DNA from: Gemmatimonadota bacterium
GTDB taxonomy: Bacteria; Gemmatimonadota; Gemmatimonadetes; Longimicrobiales; Gaopeijiaceae
Assembly: GCA_027623325.1 (NCBI GenBank)
Contig: JAQBXY010000017.1
Span: forward strand, 1 to 64,000
Direction: 5' to 3'
DNA: 64,000 bases
Below the pieces are notes generated by a model that had not been told where the DNA came from, ran no database searches, and was given only the letters and a program-made list of their open reading frames with translations. The translations under genes were made by a program, and so were the position numbers. Of this stretch, positions 1,204 to 10,309 are shown in pieces. The stretch's first letter is position 1; each line of letters starts with the position of its first letter.

Positions 1204-2823
1204 CTAGAACTCTCGCCAATCTCCGTCCAGCACTTTCCGGTAGACCTCGCTGGCCGCGAACAGGTCGACGATGTCCTGGTCGAGCATGCCGTCTTTGGCC
1301 TCCCACTGGAGGATCTGGATCGCCTTCTCGACCGGCATGGCCTTCTTGTACGGGCGATCCGAGGCGGTGAGGGCGTCGAAGATGTCGCACACGGTCATGA
1401 TCCGGGTTTCGAGCGACAGGGTGTCGCCCGTTACGCCGTCCGGATATCCGGATCCATCGAGCTTCTCGTGATGCCCGCGCACGATCTCCGCGATTCGGGA
1501 TAGTTCCTCGGTCCAGGGAATATTGAGGAGGAAGTCATACGAGTGGACGACGTGCGACTGAATTTGGAGTCGCTCGCTTTCATCGAGTGAGCCCCGCCGG
1601 ATCTCGAGGAAGTGGAGCTCGTGGGGCGTAAGGAAGGTCTGTTGGTTGCCGTCGGGATCTACGAAGACGGTGCGCGATATCTCCTGGAGGATCTCGGCGG
1701 CGTCCTCGTCGAGCACACGGGGGACGTTTGCCTCCTGAACGGCGGCCCAGTAGCGATCGGCCTTCTCCAGTTCGACTTGGAGTTGGGCGTCGATGGCCGC
1801 GATGTCCTCGGCGGCGCCTTCCGGACCCTTTTCGGCGATGGCGGCCGCGCGGGCTTCGGCCGCCTGAAGGCGGAGCGTGATACGAATCAGGACGAAGCGT
1901 GCTTCGACCTGGGCGCCCAGCACGGGCGACAGCTTGTTTTGCTTGACGAGCGTCTCCTCGCGTACCCCGACCTTGCCGAAGTCGTGGAGGAGGCCGGCAT
2001 AGCGTAGCTGCTTCATCTCGGCATCTGTGAAGAACGAGTCGGCGAACGGGCCTTCGGTCTGCTCATTGATCAGGTTGGCGACGTCGCAGGTCAGTTCGGT
2101 CACGCGAACGGAGTGACCGGAGGTGGTCGGATCCCGTCGGTCGATCGCGGTGACGGCCGCCTTGATGAAGCCGGCGAACAGGTTTTCGATGTCCTGGTAG
2201 AGTCTGCCGTTCTCGATCGCAACGGCGGCTTGGCCGGCCAAGGACGAGACGATTTCGACTTCGCGATCGGTATACGGGAGCACCCAGCGGTCGGAGTCCT
2301 CATCCGTTCGGATCTTCGCGGATCGATCACTCTTTCGATTGATCAATTGGAGCACGCCGACGACGTTGTCCCGGTGATCGATCATGGGGACGACGAGCAT
2401 TGATTTGGCCCGGTAGCCGTACTTCTCGTCGTACACGGCTCGATTGAACGAGAAGGGTACGTTGTCGGGGAGTTCGTACACGTCCTCCAGCACCAGCGGC
2501 CGGCCATTCGTGGCGGCGTACCCGGCGATGGAATGCTCGTTGAGTGGAAGTCGGAACGTCGGGGATGGGATTTCCGGCAGTGTATCCGTCTGAGACGCGA
2601 TGAAGTGGAGCAGGGGAGAGCCGTCCTCCCCCTTCTCGACGAGGTAGAGACTGCCGGCGTCCGATCCCGTAAGCGATCGCGACTGAGACAGGATGAGGTC
2701 GAAGAGTGACAGAGGGTCACGCTCACCCATGAGCGCCATCCCCACCTTGCTCATCTCACGGAGTGACCACCGCGAGAATTCGAGCTCGGCTTTCAGCTCT
2801 TCGATGGTGCCCTCAACGGTCAT
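1204..2823 (-). CDS. GAF domain - HD-GYP domain phosphodiesterase
   Basis: N-terminal GAF-like (SLTGSDAGSLYLVE...MLVVPMIDHRDNVVGVLQLINRK); HDFGKVGVRE and HHEKLDGSGYPDG...TRIMTVCDIFDALTASDRPYKKAM are HD-GYP motifs. Confidence 0.9.
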   Translation of the reverse strand: MTVEGTIEELKAELEFSRWSLREMSKVGMALMGERDPLSLFDLILSQSRSLTGSDAGSLYLVEKGEDGSPLLHFIASQTDTLPEIPSPTFRLPLNEHSIAGYAATNGRPLVLEDVYELPDNVPFSFNRAVYDEKYGYRAKSMLVVPMIDHRDNVVGVLQLINRKSDRSAKIRTDEDSDRWVLPYTDREVEIVSSLAGQAAVAIENGRLYQDIENLFAGFIKAAVTAIDRRDPTTSGHSVRVTELTCDVANLINEQTEGPFADSFFTDAEMKQLRYAGLLHDFGKVGVREETLVKQNKLSPVLGAQVEARFVLIRITLRLQAAEARAAAIAEKGPEGAAEDIAAIDAQLQVELEKADRYWAAVQEANVPRVLDEDAAEILQEISRTVFVDPDGNQQTFLTPHELHFLEIRRGSLDESERLQIQSHVVHSYDFLLNIPWTEELSRIAEIVRGHHEKLDGSGYPDGVTGDTLSLETRIMTVCDIFDALTASDRPYKKAMPVEKAIQILQWEAKDGMLDQDIVDLFAASEVYRKVLDGDWREF

Positions 2824-3737
2824 CGCATCAACTCATCGGCCTTGTCAAACGCCGCTCGTGCGGCTTCTTCGTGCCCTAGCTCGGTGAGGATCTCACCCTT
2901 GAGCAAGTAGAGGTCTGCACTCAGGCTGGCCTGGCGTTCGACCGAGTCCAGGGCCTCTTGGGCGTCATAAAAGAGCCCGAGGTCCCGAAACGCAACTACG
3001 GTCAGGAAGAGCCCGTCCGTCATGGGGTCGAGTCCGAAGACGGAGATCTCTTCCATATAGTCCTCGAGGTCCACCGACTCCTCGAGGCTCATGACGCGGA
3101 ACTCCTGTTGCGGAATGGGGCGGCCGCTGCGCCGGCCCCCGACGAATACGGTCCATGCGTAGGTGGCGCCTGCGTCGAGCTCCTCCTCGTCCGGCAGGAT
3201 GAAGATCGTGTCCGCACCCAACTCATAGATCTGGGGCGGGCCCCCGCTCACTTTGCGGAGCATGAGGTCGTAGCTCTGGTTCGGAGTGGCGGTCCAAGTG
3301 AAGGTGGGGCGTTGGCTCGCGACGAGCAGTCGGTTTCGCGGAGCGACAAGGACCGAGCTGCCCGGAATCGGCCGAATCATTCCTTGCCGCCCACCGGCCG
3401 TCGCGTCGGTCGACGCGGCTTGGGCCAGGGTACTCATGGCGCGGGCGAAGATGTCCGGGTTCCCGGCCCCTCGCGGCTCGGCGACGGTGGTCGCCTCCGT
3501 GACGACTTGTTGGCCGCCGGTTCGAGTGATCAGGATGGCGCGCGCGCCTGCCGCGGGCAGGACGTCGTCCCCCACGAACATGCGTTCGCCGACGGTGGCC
3601 GGGGTCGGGGCTGCATCGCCCCGCTTCACCGCGACGTCGCCCTGGACCCGGATTACGAGCGCGACCGGGTCCTGGGCGGCGATAGGAACGGCCACAACAA
3701 GCGCCGCGAGCAGTGCCAAAGTTCCGTGTTTCCTCAT
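2820..3737 (-). CDS. Secreted FecR-domain-like protein
   Basis: Signal peptide MRKHGTLALLAALVVAVPIAAQ; VQGDVAVKRGDAAPTPATVGERMFVGDDVLPAAGARAILI is FecR-like. 4-bp overlap with the downstream HD-GYP gene. Confidence 0.75.
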   Translation of the reverse strand: MRKHGTLALLAALVVAVPIAAQDPVALVIRVQGDVAVKRGDAAPTPATVGERMFVGDDVLPAAGARAILITRTGGQQVVTEATTVAEPRGAGNPDIFARAMSTLAQAASTDATAGGRQGMIRPIPGSSVLVAPRNRLLVASQRPTFTWTATPNQSYDLMLRKVSGGPPQIYELGADTIFILPDEEELDAGATYAWTVFVGGRRSGRPIPQQEFRVMSLEESVDLEDYMEEISVFGLDPMTDGLFLTVVAFRDLGLFYDAQEALDSVERQASLSADLYLLKGEILTELGHEEAARAAFDKADELMR

Positions 3738-3792
3738 GCCTCATCTCCACTCAGATCGGGGCCGGTTCGAATCGGGCCCACAATTCAATCTT

Positions 3793-6093
3793 CTACTTTT
3801 CGGTCCTGCGCACCACGAAATCCCAGTCCGCAGGAGGCGGGTCGGCCATGTTCTCGGTACACCGAGTGACATAAAGTCGGCTCGGACCATCCTCGGGACA
3901 CGCGCTTACGGCGGTCGCGAAATGCTCCCTCGCAGTGGCCCAGTCGTGTTGCTTGTAAGCCGTCATACCGAGTTCGTAGTGCTTGAGTGCCGCCTCCTTC
4001 GAGGGTTCGAGTTCCACACCGGCCAACTCGAGCAACTCGAAGACCTTCACGGGGGCCTCCTTGCCCTTTACGGCAATGAGGTCGAGCTCCCGAACACGGT
4101 AGGATCCCTGACCGGCGGTCAACGTCACCTCGGACACCATGTTCAGTGTGTCGTACGTCTTGTTCGCGGGCTCGAGCCGAGCCGCGAGATTGACCGAGTC
4201 ACCGATGGCCGAATAGTCGAAGCGATCTTCGCCGCCGACGTTGCCGACCACGACCTCTCCGCTGTGTACCCCGATTCGCACCTTGAGGGGTTCGTGAAGA
4301 GGGTTTTTCGCGGCCCAGCCCTCGTTCAGCGCGTTCATGCGACGCTGCATGAGGATCGCGGTGCGCATGGCACGATCGTGGTGATCCGGCTGTTCCTTCG
4401 GTGCGTTCCAGAACGCCATGATCGCGTCGCCGATGTATTTGTCGAGATACCCACCCTCATCGAACACGACATGGGTCATGTCGTTCAGGTACTCGTTCAG
4501 GAGCGCGATGAGGTCCTGCGCGTCCATCTCTTCCGACATCGTGGTGAAGCCGGAGAGATCGGAAAACAGAAGGCTCAAAGGGCGCTTCTCGCCGCCGAGT
4601 TGGAGCGCCGACGGGTCTTCGGAAATTTCCGCGACGACGTCCGGCGAGAGGTACTTGCCGAAGGCACCTTTGATGAAGCGTTTCTCCTTCCCTTCGATGA
4701 TCGAGACGTACGCGACGGCTAGAACGTAGGAGGACAGGGCCGCGAGGATCGGCGTTCCGATCGGAACCCAGCTCGCCGGCGCGCCGATCGAAAACAACTC
4801 TGCGCCGGGCACGTAGACGACTCCCGCCCACGCCCAGAAAGCGATCGTCCATGTGCCGGCGATGGCGATCACTGCGGCCGCCGCTCCCCATGTGGCCCCG
4901 TACCAGAACGCTACTCCGCCGGTGAGCCCGGCCAGCAGAAAGAGGAGGACGGTCCGGCCCGCGGCACCCAGCGGGCGAACGTAGGCGCCGTCAATGAGGT
5001 TCTGGAGCGCATTCGCGTGGATCTCGACGCCGTACATCCACTCGTACTCATCCGTGGACGCATCGCCCGAGACTGCTGGCGCGGCGTAGCCGAAGAATGG
5101 TGTGCGGAAACGGTCCTCGGCGTGGAACCCTGTACCGAGCAGCACGATCTTGTCCTCGAACAGCTCGGGGCTGATCGCCGCCATGAAGGAGACGGACGAC
5201 GAGGCCGACGACTGGAATGTGCCGGGCGGATCCGTCGCATCCGTGCTCGAGGGCGGACCGAGGTAGCGGATTCTGAACGGGACGATTGAACCGCCCGAGG
5301 GCTTACGCCCGTCGAACCATCCCGTGGGGATCACGCCCTGGCTTGCGGGCAGGCCCGGAAGATTGAAGCGCCCCCGTCGGCGTGCATCCTCGAGGAGGGA
5401 GTCGACATCCAGGCCTCGCGAGTGGGCATACATCGCCAATGCGAACGAGGGGACGAGGTCGTTGCCCGACCGCACGGCGAGTGAGCCGTCGCGGAAGGTC
5501 TCGAACGACGACGGCAGTTCTGCGGAACCCACGCCAGCCGCGACTTCGGCGAAGAAGGGGTGCGGGGCCGTAACGATGGGACCGGAGTCCGTCTGCTCGA
5601 CGGGAGCCACGATGATGACGTTGCCGGCCCTCTCCATCGCATCGCGCAACAGATCGTTGCCACCGTCGATGAGGTTGAGCCCGGGGAAGAGTTCCCCGAG
5701 GAAGACGTCGACGCCGATTGTCTTGGCGCCGGCCATGGAGAGGGCGTCGATCAATTCCGCGAGCGGCGCTCGGGGAAACGGTGTGATCCACTTCCACCCG
5801 TCGATCGTGTCGAGTACCGAAAACTCGTCGAAGAGCACGAGGACGACTTCGCTTTCGCGATCCCCCAGCCCGGCCTGAAACGACTCGGGTGTCGTCTGCT
5901 GGCGAAGGTCGAGCGTCGAGTCCTCGAACTGACGGATTCCGGTGAGGTCTCCCAACGTGTCGCCTACCACGACAGCGAGCGCGACCGCGGCGAGCACGAT
6001 GAGCGAGAACGCGACGAGTCGTCGCGTCTTCTTCAGCCATTGGCGCTTGGGCGCCCGTGAACTGGCGCCGGAACGGGCAGCCTTATCTACCAC
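3793..6093 (-). CDS. CHASE2 domain-containing adenylate cyclase (class III)
   Basis: N-terminal CHASE2 with TM helices; cyclase motifs LFSDLSGFT, DKYIGDAIMAFWNAP, RIGVHSGEVVVGNVG, DYSAIGDSVNLAARLE. Confidence 0.92.
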   Translation of the reverse strand: MVDKAARSGASSRAPKRQWLKKTRRLVAFSLIVLAAVALAVVVGDTLGDLTGIRQFEDSTLDLRQQTTPESFQAGLGDRESEVVLVLFDEFSVLDTIDGWKWITPFPRAPLAELIDALSMAGAKTIGVDVFLGELFPGLNLIDGGNDLLRDAMERAGNVIIVAPVEQTDSGPIVTAPHPFFAEVAAGVGSAELPSSFETFRDGSLAVRSGNDLVPSFALAMYAHSRGLDVDSLLEDARRRGRFNLPGLPASQGVIPTGWFDGRKPSGGSIVPFRIRYLGPPSSTDATDPPGTFQSSASSSVSFMAAISPELFEDKIVLLGTGFHAEDRFRTPFFGYAAPAVSGDASTDEYEWMYGVEIHANALQNLIDGAYVRPLGAAGRTVLLFLLAGLTGGVAFWYGATWGAAAAVIAIAGTWTIAFWAWAGVVYVPGAELFSIGAPASWVPIGTPILAALSSYVLAVAYVSIIEGKEKRFIKGAFGKYLSPDVVAEISEDPSALQLGGEKRPLSLLFSDLSGFTTMSEEMDAQDLIALLNEYLNDMTHVVFDEGGYLDKYIGDAIMAFWNAPKEQPDHHDRAMRTAILMQRRMNALNEGWAAKNPLHEPLKVRIGVHSGEVVVGNVGGEDRFDYSAIGDSVNLAARLEPANKTYDTLNMVSEVTLTAGQGSYRVRELDLIAVKGKEAPVKVFELLELAGVELEPSKEAALKHYELGMTAYKQHDWATAREHFATAVSACPEDGPSRLYVTRCTENMADPPPADWDFVVRRTEK

Positions 6094-6106
6094 GGGCTGG
6101 CTGGGA

Positions 6107-8002
6107 TCAATTGGTGATTTCGTAGACGATCGAAGCCGTTCCCCAAGAATTCAGACGCACAGCGCCATTCTCCAGGCCCGCCGCTCGCTTGAGCGCTTCG
6201 GCGACGGCAGCCGCGAACCCCTCGCCACCGGACGCATAGAGTTCCCCCGCAGGGATCGTGATGTCGAGCGGCCGTTCCGTTAGGAAGGCGCGCACCATGC
6301 CACCGCCGACGGGCGGGAGCGCGGTGAAGGCCAGGTCGGCACCAGGATACTCGAGGCGTCGGCCCGCCCGAATCTGCATCGACGGGTCGTCCTGATTGGG
6401 CAACAGCATCGCCACGGTCCCGTCGGTCCCGATGTCTACAAGCGTGACGAAGCCGTCACGATCGGACTCGACGATGAACGCGATGTCCTCCCCGACCCCA
6501 AACTTTGTTTTGCCTCCCAGAAGCTGGAGCGTGAGCCCGAACGACTGCGCGGGGTTGTCCATGTCCCCGAGGCTCTTCGCGGCGGCTTCGGTACGGAGGA
6601 TCGATCCAAGTGCTGCCATCGCCGACGGGGTGGTCCCAATCGCCTCGTGGCGCGCAAAACCGTCCGAACCGATCACTCGGAGCTCGTCGCCACGGCGCCT
6701 GACGATCAAATGGCTGAACAAGTTCTCGTCGTCGATGATCCGGATGGCGGGCGCGCCGGCGAGCGCAGTACGAAGGGCCTCGGTCAGACGCGTATCGATC
6801 GAGGCCATGTTCACGAGGAGTGGGATCTCCAAGTAGACGTGCGCCGTCAGTCGCGCTTGGTCACCGTCACGGACCGAGCCGGAAACCACGTCGACGGTCG
6901 TCGTCCGCTGTCCGACCGACGCGACGACGAGCCGTGCCCCCGAAGGCGTCTCGAAGGTCGATCCCGGCGTAATCCCGAGCGCGAGGCCAGCACCCAGTTG
7001 TGCGGTGCGACCAGACGTGGATACGACGGGAAGGGCCATCTCGCCACTGCCCGACGGACCACCATCGACGAAGAAGAGCGGGAAGTCCTTGAGCGAGACG
7101 TCTTCCGAGATGTAAGGGTCCTGCTGGAAGCGATTGCGCTTGAGTGCCTCGTAGGCGTCCTCGAACACGTTCTCGTAGGTCACGTTTTCCGGGGCGCGCC
7201 ACAGCTGTTGGACCAGGAAGGTCGTGAACGCACCGCCGTGGAACGCTTCCTGGCCGTTTGCCGCCGGGAAATAGGCATCGACGGCCACCTGGAAGGGTTG
7301 GGCGGCCGCGAGTTCGAGGACCCGCGTTTCCTGCGGATCGAAACCGGTAACGTCACCGGCTTGGCCGGGCAGCGCGCGGCGCGTGACCCCCGCCGGACGA
7401 TCGACGTCGTTGATGTCGCGGCCCAGTAGCCGGCCCCGGCTGAATGGCGTCACATCGCGCGTGCCGGTGCCGGAATTGCAGTTGTCGAGAACGACCAAGA
7501 CGTTGTCGGTGGGTAGCAAGCCGAGCCAATCGTTGAACTCGTCATCGCTGATATCGAACTCGGTGCTGGTTGGATTGGCGTCGGCGGGCGCGAGCGTCTC
7601 GTCAAGCCCGTCGTCTTCGTCGCCGCTCTCGTCCCACATCTGCGAGCCGTGTCCGGCGAAGAAAATCACGACGTTGTCGCCGGGCCGCGCATTCTGCACG
7701 AGCCAGCCGGTGATCCCCTCGCGGATCGCGCTCTTCGTGGCGTCGTGGTTCAAGACCAGACGAACGTTCTCCTCCGGGAAACCACGGCGCATAACCAGTG
7801 CGTCTCGGATGCGGCGCGCATCGTGCTCGGCACCTGGAAGATCGCCGCCCTCGACGTCCTCGAAGTGAATGTAGTCACTCACACCCACGATGAAGGCCCA
7901 GCGGGTGAGGGCTGTCCGCTCCTGAGGCCCGAAGGCGAGGAGCGGGAGGATGGCCACCATGGTCGCGATGTATGCGACCCGTCGATTCAGCAACTGTTTC
8001 AC
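6107..8002 (-). CDS. Caspase family (peptidase C14-like) protein with C-terminal DUF4384-like domain
   Basis: AFIVGVSDY, VVIFFAGHGSQ (His), LVVLDNCNSGTG (Cys) His/Cys dyad; C-terminal GEDIAFIVESDRDGFVTLVDIGTDGTVAMLLPN. Confidence 0.88.
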   Translation of the reverse strand: MKQLLNRRVAYIATMVAILPLLAFGPQERTALTRWAFIVGVSDYIHFEDVEGGDLPGAEHDARRIRDALVMRRGFPEENVRLVLNHDATKSAIREGITGWLVQNARPGDNVVIFFAGHGSQMWDESGDEDDGLDETLAPADANPTSTEFDISDDEFNDWLGLLPTDNVLVVLDNCNSGTGTRDVTPFSRGRLLGRDINDVDRPAGVTRRALPGQAGDVTGFDPQETRVLELAAAQPFQVAVDAYFPAANGQEAFHGGAFTTFLVQQLWRAPENVTYENVFEDAYEALKRNRFQQDPYISEDVSLKDFPLFFVDGGPSGSGEMALPVVSTSGRTAQLGAGLALGITPGSTFETPSGARLVVASVGQRTTTVDVVSGSVRDGDQARLTAHVYLEIPLLVNMASIDTRLTEALRTALAGAPAIRIIDDENLFSHLIVRRRGDELRVIGSDGFARHEAIGTTPSAMAALGSILRTEAAAKSLGDMDNPAQSFGLTLQLLGGKTKFGVGEDIAFIVESDRDGFVTLVDIGTDGTVAMLLPNQDDPSMQIRAGRRLEYPGADLAFTALPPVGGGMVRAFLTERPLDITIPAGELYASGGEGFAAAVAEALKRAAGLENGAVRLNSWGTASIVYEITN

Positions 8003-8997
8003 TTCGATCTCTCCAGCGTGTAGTCGATCCCCTCCATCGCCGCGCCAACTTCGAGGCCGCTTCCGCTTCGCGCGGCAGCCTCTCGCATTTTGGCGACGAG
8101 GGCATCCACTTCGTAGTCGGTCCGAGTCGGGTCGTGGTGGGAGAAGAGCAATCGCTTCACGCCACCTTCCTTCGCGAGGCGGAGTGACTGCTCGAACGTC
8201 GAGTGTCCCCAGCCCAACCGTTTCGGGTACTCCACTTCTGTATACATCGAATCATGGATCAGAAGATCCGCGTCGCCCACGAAGTCTACGATCCTCTTGT
8301 CGAATCCCGGCTCCAAGTCATACACGGTCCCGTCGAGTTCGTTGTCGGGGATAAAGCAAATGACCCGGCCCGCCACCTTGATGCGGTATCCAATGACGAA
8401 GGACGGATGCCGGACCCGCATCACGTCGAGCTCGAATTCACCGACCTCGTAACTGCCCTCATTGAGGTGCTCGAATTCCATGACCGCAGCAACGACGCTG
8501 AAGGGGACCGGGAAGTAGATGGGGCCCATCTGTCCCGCGAAAAGATTCTGGACGTCGATGTCCTTCTGTTTCGGTCCGATGACCTTGATCGAGTCCTCGG
8601 GATCGTACAACGGCGAGAAGAAGGGGAAGCCCTGGATGTGATCCCAATGGAAGTGCGTCAGGAAGATGTGGATCGCGTTCGGCCCCTTCTCGACGATGTC
8701 CAAGCCGAGAGGCCGAATCCCCGACCCGGCGTCGAAGATAATCCGCTGGTCTGCGCCGCAGACTTCCAGGCACGTGGTATTACCGCCGTACCGCGTGGTG
8801 TCCGGGCCGGGCGACGGGATCGATCCCCGTGTTCCCCAACAGCGAACTGAGATGCCATCGGCGGCCTTCACCCGCGAGGCCGGCGTGTTCTCGTTGGATG
8901 TGGAATCCAAGCGTATGCTCCAGGGGACAGGGGGTGGCAGTCGCGACAGGTCCGCGCTTGTCCAATGTACAGGGGGCATTGCCGGGGTCGCGAGCAT
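7999..8997 (-). CDS. MBL-fold metallo-hydrolase (PhnP/RNase Z-like)
   Basis: WGTRGSIPSPGPDTTRYGGNTTCLEV; THFHWDHIQGFPFF (HxHxDH). 4-bp overlap with the caspase gene. Start may lie further downstream. Confidence 0.85.
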   Translation of the reverse strand: MLATPAMPPVHWTSADLSRLPPPVPWSIRLDSTSNENTPASRVKAADGISVRCWGTRGSIPSPGPDTTRYGGNTTCLEVCGADQRIIFDAGSGIRPLGLDIVEKGPNAIHIFLTHFHWDHIQGFPFFSPLYDPEDSIKVIGPKQKDIDVQNLFAGQMGPIYFPVPFSVVAAVMEFEHLNEGSYEVGEFELDVMRVRHPSFVIGYRIKVAGRVICFIPDNELDGTVYDLEPGFDKRIVDFVGDADLLIHDSMYTEVEYPKRLGWGHSTFEQSLRLAKEGGVKRLLFSHHDPTRTDYEVDALVAKMREAAARSGSGLEVGAAMEGIDYTLERSK

Positions 8998-9085
8998 TTT
9001 TCGTTGCCGGGGGTGATTCTCGCGGTGTTCCGGCGCTGTAGATAGCTTTGTCCATCCGGAGTATGTCGCTCAGAACCCCGATTCC

Positions 9086-10309
9086 ATGGATCATTCAACA
9101 GGCGCAGTGGCCCCCGGAGGGCCACCCGCAACCCTGACGCGAGAGCAGATCAGCGTCCGGTTGCGTGAGGTCGCCCTGTTTCAAGGTCTCGGCGAATCGG
9201 ATCTGACCGAGATTCTCCGCATCTCGGAGGCGGTTCGCGTTGATGCGAGCGAGTGTGTCTTCGAAGAAGGTGAGCGTGGAGACCACTTCTACATCATCGT
9301 CCACGGAAGCATCGAACTCCGAAAGTCCTCGGGTGCCGATGCGAAACGATTGGCCGTGCTCCGAGCAGGGCAGGCGTTCGGTGAGATGGCTCTTCTCAAC
9401 CAGACACCCCGCTCCGCCTCGGCTTATGCGATCGAAGACACGTACCTCCTCTCCGTGTCGCGCGCCGCCTTCAGTCGTATGCTCGGCGGTGACACCCTCT
9501 CGGTCCGGCTCTTGAAGAACCTGTCCAAGGCGCTGTGGGCGACCTCGGTCCGCCTCGCGGCCCAGCAGGCGAAGGCGCCCGCGGAGGCGGAGGCCGGCCA
9601 GGAGACACTCTCGGAGTTCAATCGCCTGTTGCGGGCACGCCTGCTGCCCCGCGTGACCCCGCGGGTGAGCGGATACGAGCTGTCCGCATCGACGCTGGCA
9701 CCCCGGCAGGGCTCGGGATCGACGACGTGGGATTGGTTCGTTCTCACGGATGGCCGACCCGCGTTTGCGGTCCTGAGGGCCACGAGCAGTGACCTCTTTT
9801 CGGCGCAGCGCCTGGCGGCGGTCCGAATGCTGCTGCGGAGCGCCGCGGCGGAGCCGCACGCAACGCTTGGCGCCATGCTCACGAAGGTGGCACGGAATCT
9901 GAGGGCCGGCTGGATCGAAGGCCTGTCCGGGTCTGTGATCGTCGGCGTCGCCGCTCTCGCCGACGGGGCCGCCGAATGGGTCGAAGCGGGCCCCGTCACG
10001 GGTGTGATCGTCAGGGCGCGCGGTACCGCCGAAGATTTGAGTTCCCATTCCCCTCCTATCGGCGAGGAAGCGGACCGGGTGTACGAGTCGACGATGATCG
10101 TCCTCGGCACCGGCGATCGGATCGCGGCGATCACCGACACGCATTCGGAATCGGCGCGCACGGTGGCCACGACCCTCCTGAACGGACAGCTTTCGAACTC
10201 ACGCGACGCGCTCACAACCGTGCTCGCTGCGCTCGAGCCGGTCGGAGCTGGCGATGAGCCTTCGGACGTGAGCGCCGTACTCATTACGCGCACCACGACA
10301 TCACGCTGA
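9086..10309 (+). CDS. Cyclic nucleotide-binding domain protein with C-terminal SpoIIE/PP2C-like domain
   Basis: ALFQGLGESDLTEIL...FEEGERGDHFYIIVHGSIEL...AGQAFGEMALLNQTPRSASAYA is a CAP_ED domain; the C-terminal half resembles a PP2C fold. Confidence 0.8.
   Translation: MDHSTGAVAPGGPPATLTREQISVRLREVALFQGLGESDLTEILRISEAVRVDASECVFEEGERGDHFYIIVHGSIELRKSSGADAKRLAVLRAGQAFGEMALLNQTPRSASAYAIEDTYLLSVSRAAFSRMLGGDTLSVRLLKNLSKALWATSVRLAAQQAKAPAEAEAGQETLSEFNRLLRARLLPRVTPRVSGYELSASTLAPRQGSGSTTWDWFVLTDGRPAFAVLRATSSDLFSAQRLAAVRMLLRSAAAEPHATLGAMLTKVARNLRAGWIEGLSGSVIVGVAALADGAAEWVEAGPVTGVIVRARGTAEDLSSHSPPIGEEADRVYESTMIVLGTGDRIAAITDTHSESARTVATTLLNGQLSNSRDALTTVLAALEPVGAGDEPSDVSAVLITRTTTSR

Follow-up and report, generated by a model that had tools for sequence, protein, structure and literature searches.

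A predicted exported caspase inherited with a CHASE2-cyclase and a FecR/MtxA-like protein in Gemmatimonadota, and its possible role as an input to cyclic-nucleotide signalling

What might a caspase do when its gene lies in an operon with a membrane-bound nucleotide cyclase? Bacterial caspase homologues are widespread, with substrates and roles that are mostly unknown, and most discussion treats them as death proteases. The question is raised by a locus in a stretch of Gemmatimonadota DNA (64,000 nucleotides, hereafter the window), in which genes for a metallo-beta-lactamase-fold (MBL) hydrolase, a caspase-DUF4384 protein, a CHASE2 class III nucleotide cyclase (CHASE2-cyclase), an exported FecR-like protein and a GAF-HD-GYP protein follow one another on the minus strand, and a gene for a CAP_ED receptor diverges from them (Table 1). 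In an earlier note on this DNA, the locus had been read, tentatively, as a pathway for stress or cell death that is signalled by a nucleotide and has the caspase as its effector. The analysis reported here suggests a different role: since the caspase is inherited with an envelope sensor and an exported partner, it may serve in surface sensing and not in killing from inside.

The layout given in that note, five packed minus-strand genes with two 4-bp overlaps and a divergent CAP_ED gene, was found to be real by coordinates and Pfam. The overlaps were those of the caspase and MBL genes (gtga) and, by coordinates, of the HD-GYP and FecR-like genes. The gaps between the FecR-like and CHASE2-cyclase genes and between the CHASE2-cyclase and caspase genes were 55 bp and 13 bp, respectively, and 88 bp separated the MBL gene from the divergent CAP_ED start. 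The first base of the window is also that of contig C58, from a draft metagenome-assembled genome (MAG; 3.35 Mb, 60 contigs), and the window therefore extends just 1203 bp past the HD-GYP stop. The same arrangement was found again in the genus, family and order of the source genome. The order MBL-caspase-CHASE2-cyclase-FecR-like-HD-GYP was unbroken in 12 distinct loci (the window, G005, G007, G008, G018, G015, G046, G308, G057 and the MAG loci L120, L121 and L127), and further loci were interrupted by contig ends. Its recurrence in many genomes puts the arrangement far beyond chance. Thus, the comparison of neighbourhoods that the note had called for revealed a conserved unit in relatives and no scatter of homologues. 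Overall, the observation holds more strongly than the note had put it.

Judged by gene content, the inherited unit is three genes, namely those of the caspase, the CHASE2-cyclase and the FecR-like protein (the trio). Full-length orthologues of the caspase and of the CHASE2-cyclase occurred in an identical set of 9 of 298 Gemmatimonadota genomes (G000, G015, G027, G032, G046, G047, G226, G308 and G309, the caspase being split across two contigs in some). In the cyclase search, the E value jumped from 1e-283 to 1e-100 between the orthologues and the remaining matches. The FecR-like orthologue (E <= 1e-68) was found in these nine genomes and in G041, where the locus is decaying and a stub of the cyclase remains. 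The co-occurrence of the trio gave a Fisher value of 2e-17; because such values ignore relatedness, the evidential weight lies on separate losses. In G006, the caspase and cyclase genes were gone and the FecR-like gene was reduced to a 70-aa stub, but the MBL, HD-GYP and CAP_ED genes were retained. The trio was missing likewise from G016, again with these three neighbours in place, and the trio loci of G011 and G001 were eroded. Conversely, G032, from a different family, carried an intact trio on the strand opposite to its MBL and HD-GYP genes, which lay apart. The trio was found in none of 48 caspase loci outside Gemmatimonadota, which were scanned with motifs of this subfamily and of which many lay on short contigs.

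The MBL and HD-GYP proteins had been proposed as candidate hydrolases of the pathway, and this assignment was not borne out. HD-GYP orthologues were present in 96 of the 298 genomes, as against 9 for the trio, and the MBL/HD-GYP pair both outlasted the deletion of the trio in G006 and G016 and occurred class-wide without it. Of 17 HD-GYP loci sampled outside the trio, 14 had an MBL gene beside or near HD-GYP; in the loci that were read, a CsgG-like gene typically lay between the two, sometimes with ABC-transporter genes, and a protein with a cyclic-nucleotide-binding (CNB) domain was encoded upstream. This neighbourhood was observed Gemmatimonadota-wide (L194-L200, L202-L205, L208 and L209); it seems to represent the ancestral context of the MBL and HD-GYP genes seen in the window. 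By its distribution, then, the trio lies within an older and wider neighbourhood, and the locus is two modules and not one. Therefore, the hydrolases cannot be assigned to the nucleotide of the trio by position alone. The HD and HHE...GYP motifs of the HD-GYP protein were intact in the alignment, and phosphodiesterase activity is predicted. Its HD-GYP domain, like those of relatives, also contained an insertion of about 80-90 residues at the junction of the HD and HHE...GYP parts. Class-wide matches collected as "CAPED" were not accepted as CAP_ED orthologues since only the CNB domain matched, and the single protein scanned was a CRP-type regulator.

The caspase consisted of a Peptidase_C14 domain (PF00656, E 2e-16; residues 33-300) and a C-terminal DUF4384 (E 6e-14; residues 501-578), and its orthologues were 37-74% identical. 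In nine full-length orthologues, H118, C175, D61 and D173 were invariant. H118 and C175 aligned with the His/Cys dyad of the metacaspases AtMC4 and Yca1, and D61 and D173 occupied the motif positions of the S1-pocket residues Asp95 and Asp211 of TbMCA2, as placed via the AtMC4 and Yca1 alignments. This acidic pocket of TbMCA2 accommodates Arg or Lys, the residues after which metacaspases prefer to cut (PMC4357240); orthocaspases likewise cut after positively charged residues (PMC6426788). By sequence, the protein thus belongs with the orthocaspases and metacaspases (MEROPS C14B), with which it shares the p20 fold, the His/Cys dyad and the acidic S1-pocket residues. Unlike TbMCA2, AtMC4, Yca1 and their kin, it has a predicted N-terminal export signal, a C-terminal DUF4384 and an operon with a CHASE2-cyclase. 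The structure model had a predicted local distance difference test (pLDDT) score of 65 with a poorly modelled p20, and the fold search returned metacaspases; matches of the model to F1-ATPase folds were disregarded on account of low TM scores. Nearly all orthologues with the N terminus present began with a basic stretch followed by a hydrophobic stretch, mostly ending LLAFGP.

The CHASE2-cyclase was composed of one transmembrane (TM) segment, the CHASE2 ectodomain (E 2e-27), three TM segments, the cyclase domain and TPR, as determined by Pfam and the TM scan. Class III cyclases use two metal-binding Asp residues, an adenine-pocket Lys and a transition-state Asn and Arg. The corresponding D512, D556, K552, N635 and R639 were invariant in 12 sequences, so that the protein combines an ectodomain held between TM segments with a catalytically complete cyclase domain. 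The nearest solved relatives of this domain were adenylate cyclases, e.g., CyaB, and Ser/Thr was found at the second specificity position. Since the metal Asp, adenine-pocket Lys and transition-state Asn/Arg are retained, the predicted product is more likely cAMP than cGMP. No TM segment was found in the MBL, HD-GYP or CAP_ED proteins by the TM scan; the genes kept or lost together were exactly the three with predicted extracytoplasmic parts. The export signals would place both the caspase and the FecR-like protein on the side of the CHASE2 ectodomain, away from the cyclic nucleotide.

The FecR-like protein had a signal peptide, an N-terminal beta domain, an FN3/Ig-like domain and a C-terminal TPR (model pLDDT 85). 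Its assignment to the Pfam family FecR had to be given up: none of 12 orthologues matched at E up to 1. The nearest solved relative was MtxA (4z29), a remote homologue (profile E 0.0011; fold TMt 0.61, TMq 0.39). The locus has a CHASE2-cyclase beside an exported FecR-type/TPR protein whose similarity to FecR is at the level of MtxA only. The longest invariant run in the alignment was R117-QGMIRP, with 7 of 7 columns at 100%. It fell within residues 112-123, which link the N-terminal part to the FN3 domain and are the one internal stretch that scored under 50 in pLDDT. This heptapeptide occurred in all 20 of the distinct trio-type loci counted (the 12 alignment sequences and G010, G041, G226, G308, G309, L120, L121 and L127) and missing from four more distant non-trio homologues covering the region (L187-L190); a fifth homologue was truncated. 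Arg117 is a candidate cleavage site because it is a conserved Arg in a segment of no predicted order, restricted to partners of the caspase, and because the caspase retains the Cys/His dyad and the two S1-pocket Asp residues.

Considering the co-inheritance, the domain content, the intact catalytic residues, the export signals called by hydropathy and the invariant linker, we infer that the trio may be an envelope sensor in which the caspase processes the FecR-like protein and thereby sets the output of the CHASE2-cyclase, a reading to which we give nearly, though not quite, an even chance. Its specific form, in which the exported caspase is a proteolytic input switch that cuts the FecR/MtxA-like protein at the Arg of RQGMIRP and gates the CHASE2-cyclase across the membrane, is more tentative. 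The caspase would be activated by a signal at the envelope or, like many metacaspases, by Ca2+; it would then cut after Arg117 and split the N-terminal domain from the FN3-TPR part. The cut would alter the engagement of the FecR-like protein with the CHASE2 ectodomain, and synthesis of cAMP (less likely cGMP) in the cytoplasm would change. CAP_ED proteins, the divergent neighbour being one of them, would read the nucleotide. The protease would then be an input to cyclic-nucleotide signalling and not an executioner. Several points weigh against this proposal. Export of the caspase was called by hydropathy alone and not by SignalP, and the proline that comes directly after the signal's best cleavage position may point to an uncleaved anchor. 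The disorder of RQGMIRP comes from one AlphaFold2 model built from 12 sequences, and the decaying locus of G041 retains the motif without a caspase. The co-inheritance counts carry no correction for relatedness. Moreover, the caspase may act instead on CHASE2 or on a protein encoded elsewhere.

The chief alternative is that the RQGMIRP linker could be a docking motif. The three proteins would form one envelope complex in which the linker docks either the caspase or the CHASE2 ectodomain; cuts by the protease would fall on other envelope proteins in quality control or remodelling, with cAMP as a parallel or feedback output. The same co-inheritance and topology fit this, an invariant peptide in a flexible linker may equally be a binding motif, and the gene of the MtxA-type protein adjoins a CHASE2-cyclase gene with no caspase reported. 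However, the motif was missing from the four non-trio homologues and occurred without a caspase only in decaying G041, and its conserved basic residue stands where a metacaspase-type protease would require it. We consider docking somewhat unlikely.

The pathway of the earlier note, with the caspase acting downstream of the cyclase in stress or cell death, is improbable. Cell death has been linked to proteases of the caspase superfamily (PMC3501461, PMC7475262), and a cyclase and a CAP_ED receptor are encoded close together in the locus. However, the caspase has an N-terminal export signal by hydropathy and shows, by Pfam, neither a CNB domain nor any other obvious input for a nucleotide, and the CAP_ED gene persists in G006 and G016 without a caspase. 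Since the caspase is predicted to be exported, a downstream cytosolic death effector is unlikely, though export would still allow action at the surface of the cell or on its neighbours (PMC3501461). Loose linkage of vertically inherited neighbours with no functional coupling has little probability. Pairwise identities of all five genes were correlated (Spearman 0.68-0.85), as expected of one vertically inherited locus, but the trio is present or absent as a block while its neighbours remain, it stays intact in G032 although the MBL and HD-GYP genes lie apart, and the RQGMIRP motif tied to it argues for coupling. Anti-phage defence of the Pycsar or caspase type is very improbable: PADLOC matched PycC (E 2e-32, cyclase domain), PycTIR (1e-10, CNB domain) and the caspase (6e-15) at the level of domains only, the window locus lacks the Pycsar combination of a soluble PycC and a TIR or TM effector with a CNB domain, having a membrane CHASE2-cyclase, a CNB protein with a SpoIIE-like domain and an exported caspase, and in most relatives its position beside the same metabolic genes is stable, unlike that of mobile defence genes, in agreement with the earlier statement that nothing in the sequence indicates defence.

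An association of CHASE2, cyclase and FecR in other bacteria, also pointed out earlier, is documented in published clusters (PMC9239204; mtxA, PMC4439547). In Campylobacterota, a cluster of CHASE2-adenylate cyclase, FecR, TPR and phosphodiesterase genes has been described (PMC9239204). There too a CHASE2 class III cyclase lies beside FecR-type and TPR proteins, read by its authors as one signal transduction pathway, and no caspase is mentioned; in the window, FecR-like and TPR parts are fused and a co-inherited exported caspase-DUF4384 is added. The mtxA gene of magnetotactic bacteria (PMC4439547; PDB 4z29) encodes an exported Ig-like/TPR protein and adjoins a CHASE2-cyclase gene, as in the window, but no caspase is mentioned and the homology to the window's protein is remote. 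In the Burkholderia BiofilmReg operon (PMC5192318), an exported LysM-FecR protein is likewise encoded next to a membrane sensor bearing CHASE2; there, however, the CHASE2 domain belongs to a histidine kinase paired with a response regulator, and neither cyclase nor caspase is mentioned. In the metacaspase-CHASE2 fusion of the cyanobacterium Trichodesmium (PMC3501461, PMC2853523), a caspase domain is also tied to a CHASE2 sensor, but in a single protein with a predicted cytoplasmic caspase and no cyclase, whereas the window encodes separate proteins and an exported caspase. CHASE2 cyclases of S. meliloti respond to a signal sensed via an outer-membrane protein (PMC13001267) and, like the Campylobacterota and mtxA clusters, offer a precedent for the proposed envelope sensor.

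A possible parallel to the trio was found in Nostocales (L140, L142, L145 and L158), where a CHAT-CHASE2 protein, a DUF928 or DUF928-like protein and a caspase-DUF4384 are encoded together, joined by a TPR-CHAT protein in the loci scanned for it. As in the window, a CHASE2 sensor is combined with an exported beta-rich protein and an exported caspase-DUF4384; unlike in the window, there is no cyclase and the caspase start is Tat-like (twin-arginine-like), not Sec-like. DUF928 and the window's FecR-like protein showed weak similarity (hhalign probability 41%). In 33 non-Gemmatimonadota genomes, CHASE2 and caspase genes lay within 10 kb in few cases, little above chance, so the cyanobacterial parallel is confined to the conserved Nostocales clusters. 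CHASE2-cyclase/FecR clusters are known; no account of the co-inherited exported caspase, or joining CHASE2, FecR and caspase, was found in the open-access literature. Because the locus provides not only a protease but also candidates for its substrate and for the residue cut, along with a cyclic-nucleotide output that can be measured, a role in signal input and not in execution is directly testable. CHASE2-cyclases, whose signals are mostly unknown, would gain possible proteolytic control.

The divergent receptor had a typical CAP_ED domain, with CNB-domain relatives of solved structure. SpoIIE/PP2C domains bind metal through Asp residues of the GGD and DxSGHG motifs. By eye, Thr and Arg stood at these two positions of the SpoIIE/PP2C-like domain (9779-10288) in the window and close relatives. 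As the two Asp residues appear to be absent, this domain is probably not an active phosphatase; hence, of the CAP_ED receptor with a PP2C-like domain noted earlier, the receptor part stood, and the PP2C-like domain is present in an apparently degenerate form. Some distant CAP_ED orthologues retained the second metal-binding Asp. A link between CAP_ED and cyclase is suggested by the genomes: a class III cyclase occurred in 17 of 17 with a CAP_ED orthologue, compared with 19 of the 42 that lack one (Fisher 5e-5, uncorrected). Within the window's genus (G001-G013), the figures were 7 of 7 and 0 of 7, the CAP_ED receptor and every detectable class III cyclase being absent together in 7 of 14 genomes. 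The association fits a cyclic-nucleotide receptor not bound to this cyclase alone and may stem from few events. The CAP_ED gene tended to stay with paa-like neighbours, and it was retained where the caspase was deleted (G006 and G016).

Table 1. Positions of the described features in the window and, in the last row, in other loci.
Feature	Position	Strand	Basis
GAF-HD-GYP protein	1204..2823	-	Pfam HD_5 9e-32, GAF 3e-17; alignment
FecR/MtxA-like exported protein, 305 aa	2820..3737	-	structure model, MtxA similarity, TPR
Signal peptide of FecR-like protein, MRKHGTLALLAALVVAVPIAA	3675..3737	-	hydropathy script
RQGMIRP linker, residues 117-123 of FecR-like protein	3369..3389	-	alignment, model
CHASE2 class III nucleotide cyclase, 766 aa	3793..6093	-	Pfam, TM scan, alignment
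CHASE2 sensor domain, residues 40-390, predicted extracytoplasmic	4924..5976	-	PF05226 E 1.7e-27
Class III cyclase catalytic domain	4054..4581	-	PF00211 (Guanylate_cyc) E 3.4e-24
Caspase-DUF4384, 631 aa, GTG start overlapping MBL stop	6107..8002	-	Pfam, orthologues
Predicted N-terminal export signal of caspase, VKQLLNRRVAYIATMVAILPLLAFG	7928..8002	-	hydropathy script
His118 codon, predicted catalytic, motif AGHGSQ	7649..7651	-	invariant; aligns with metacaspase active-site His
Cys175 codon, predicted catalytic, motif DNCNSG	7478..7480	-	invariant; aligns with metacaspase active-site Cys
MBL-fold hydrolase, RNase Z/PhnP-like, HxHxDH	7999..8997	-	Pfam Lactamase_B_2 8e-16, NCBIfam
CAP_ED receptor, divergent, degenerate SpoIIE/PP2C-like domain	9086..10309	+	Pfam cNMP_binding 6e-21, SpoIIE 3e-12
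Second caspase genes	L089:1440-3311, L092:199-2193, L103:882-2825, L104:5112-7193, L107:1423-3930, L184:3-1394

Two further observations concern the surroundings of the locus. At positions 1-333 of the window, an open reading frame cut by the contig end appeared PIN-domain-like by eye. In several members of the family and order, a second caspase gene, with a C-terminal p20 and in some cases a visible signal peptide, was convergent to HD-GYP (Table 1, last row), and in L184 it was followed by a second cyclase gene.

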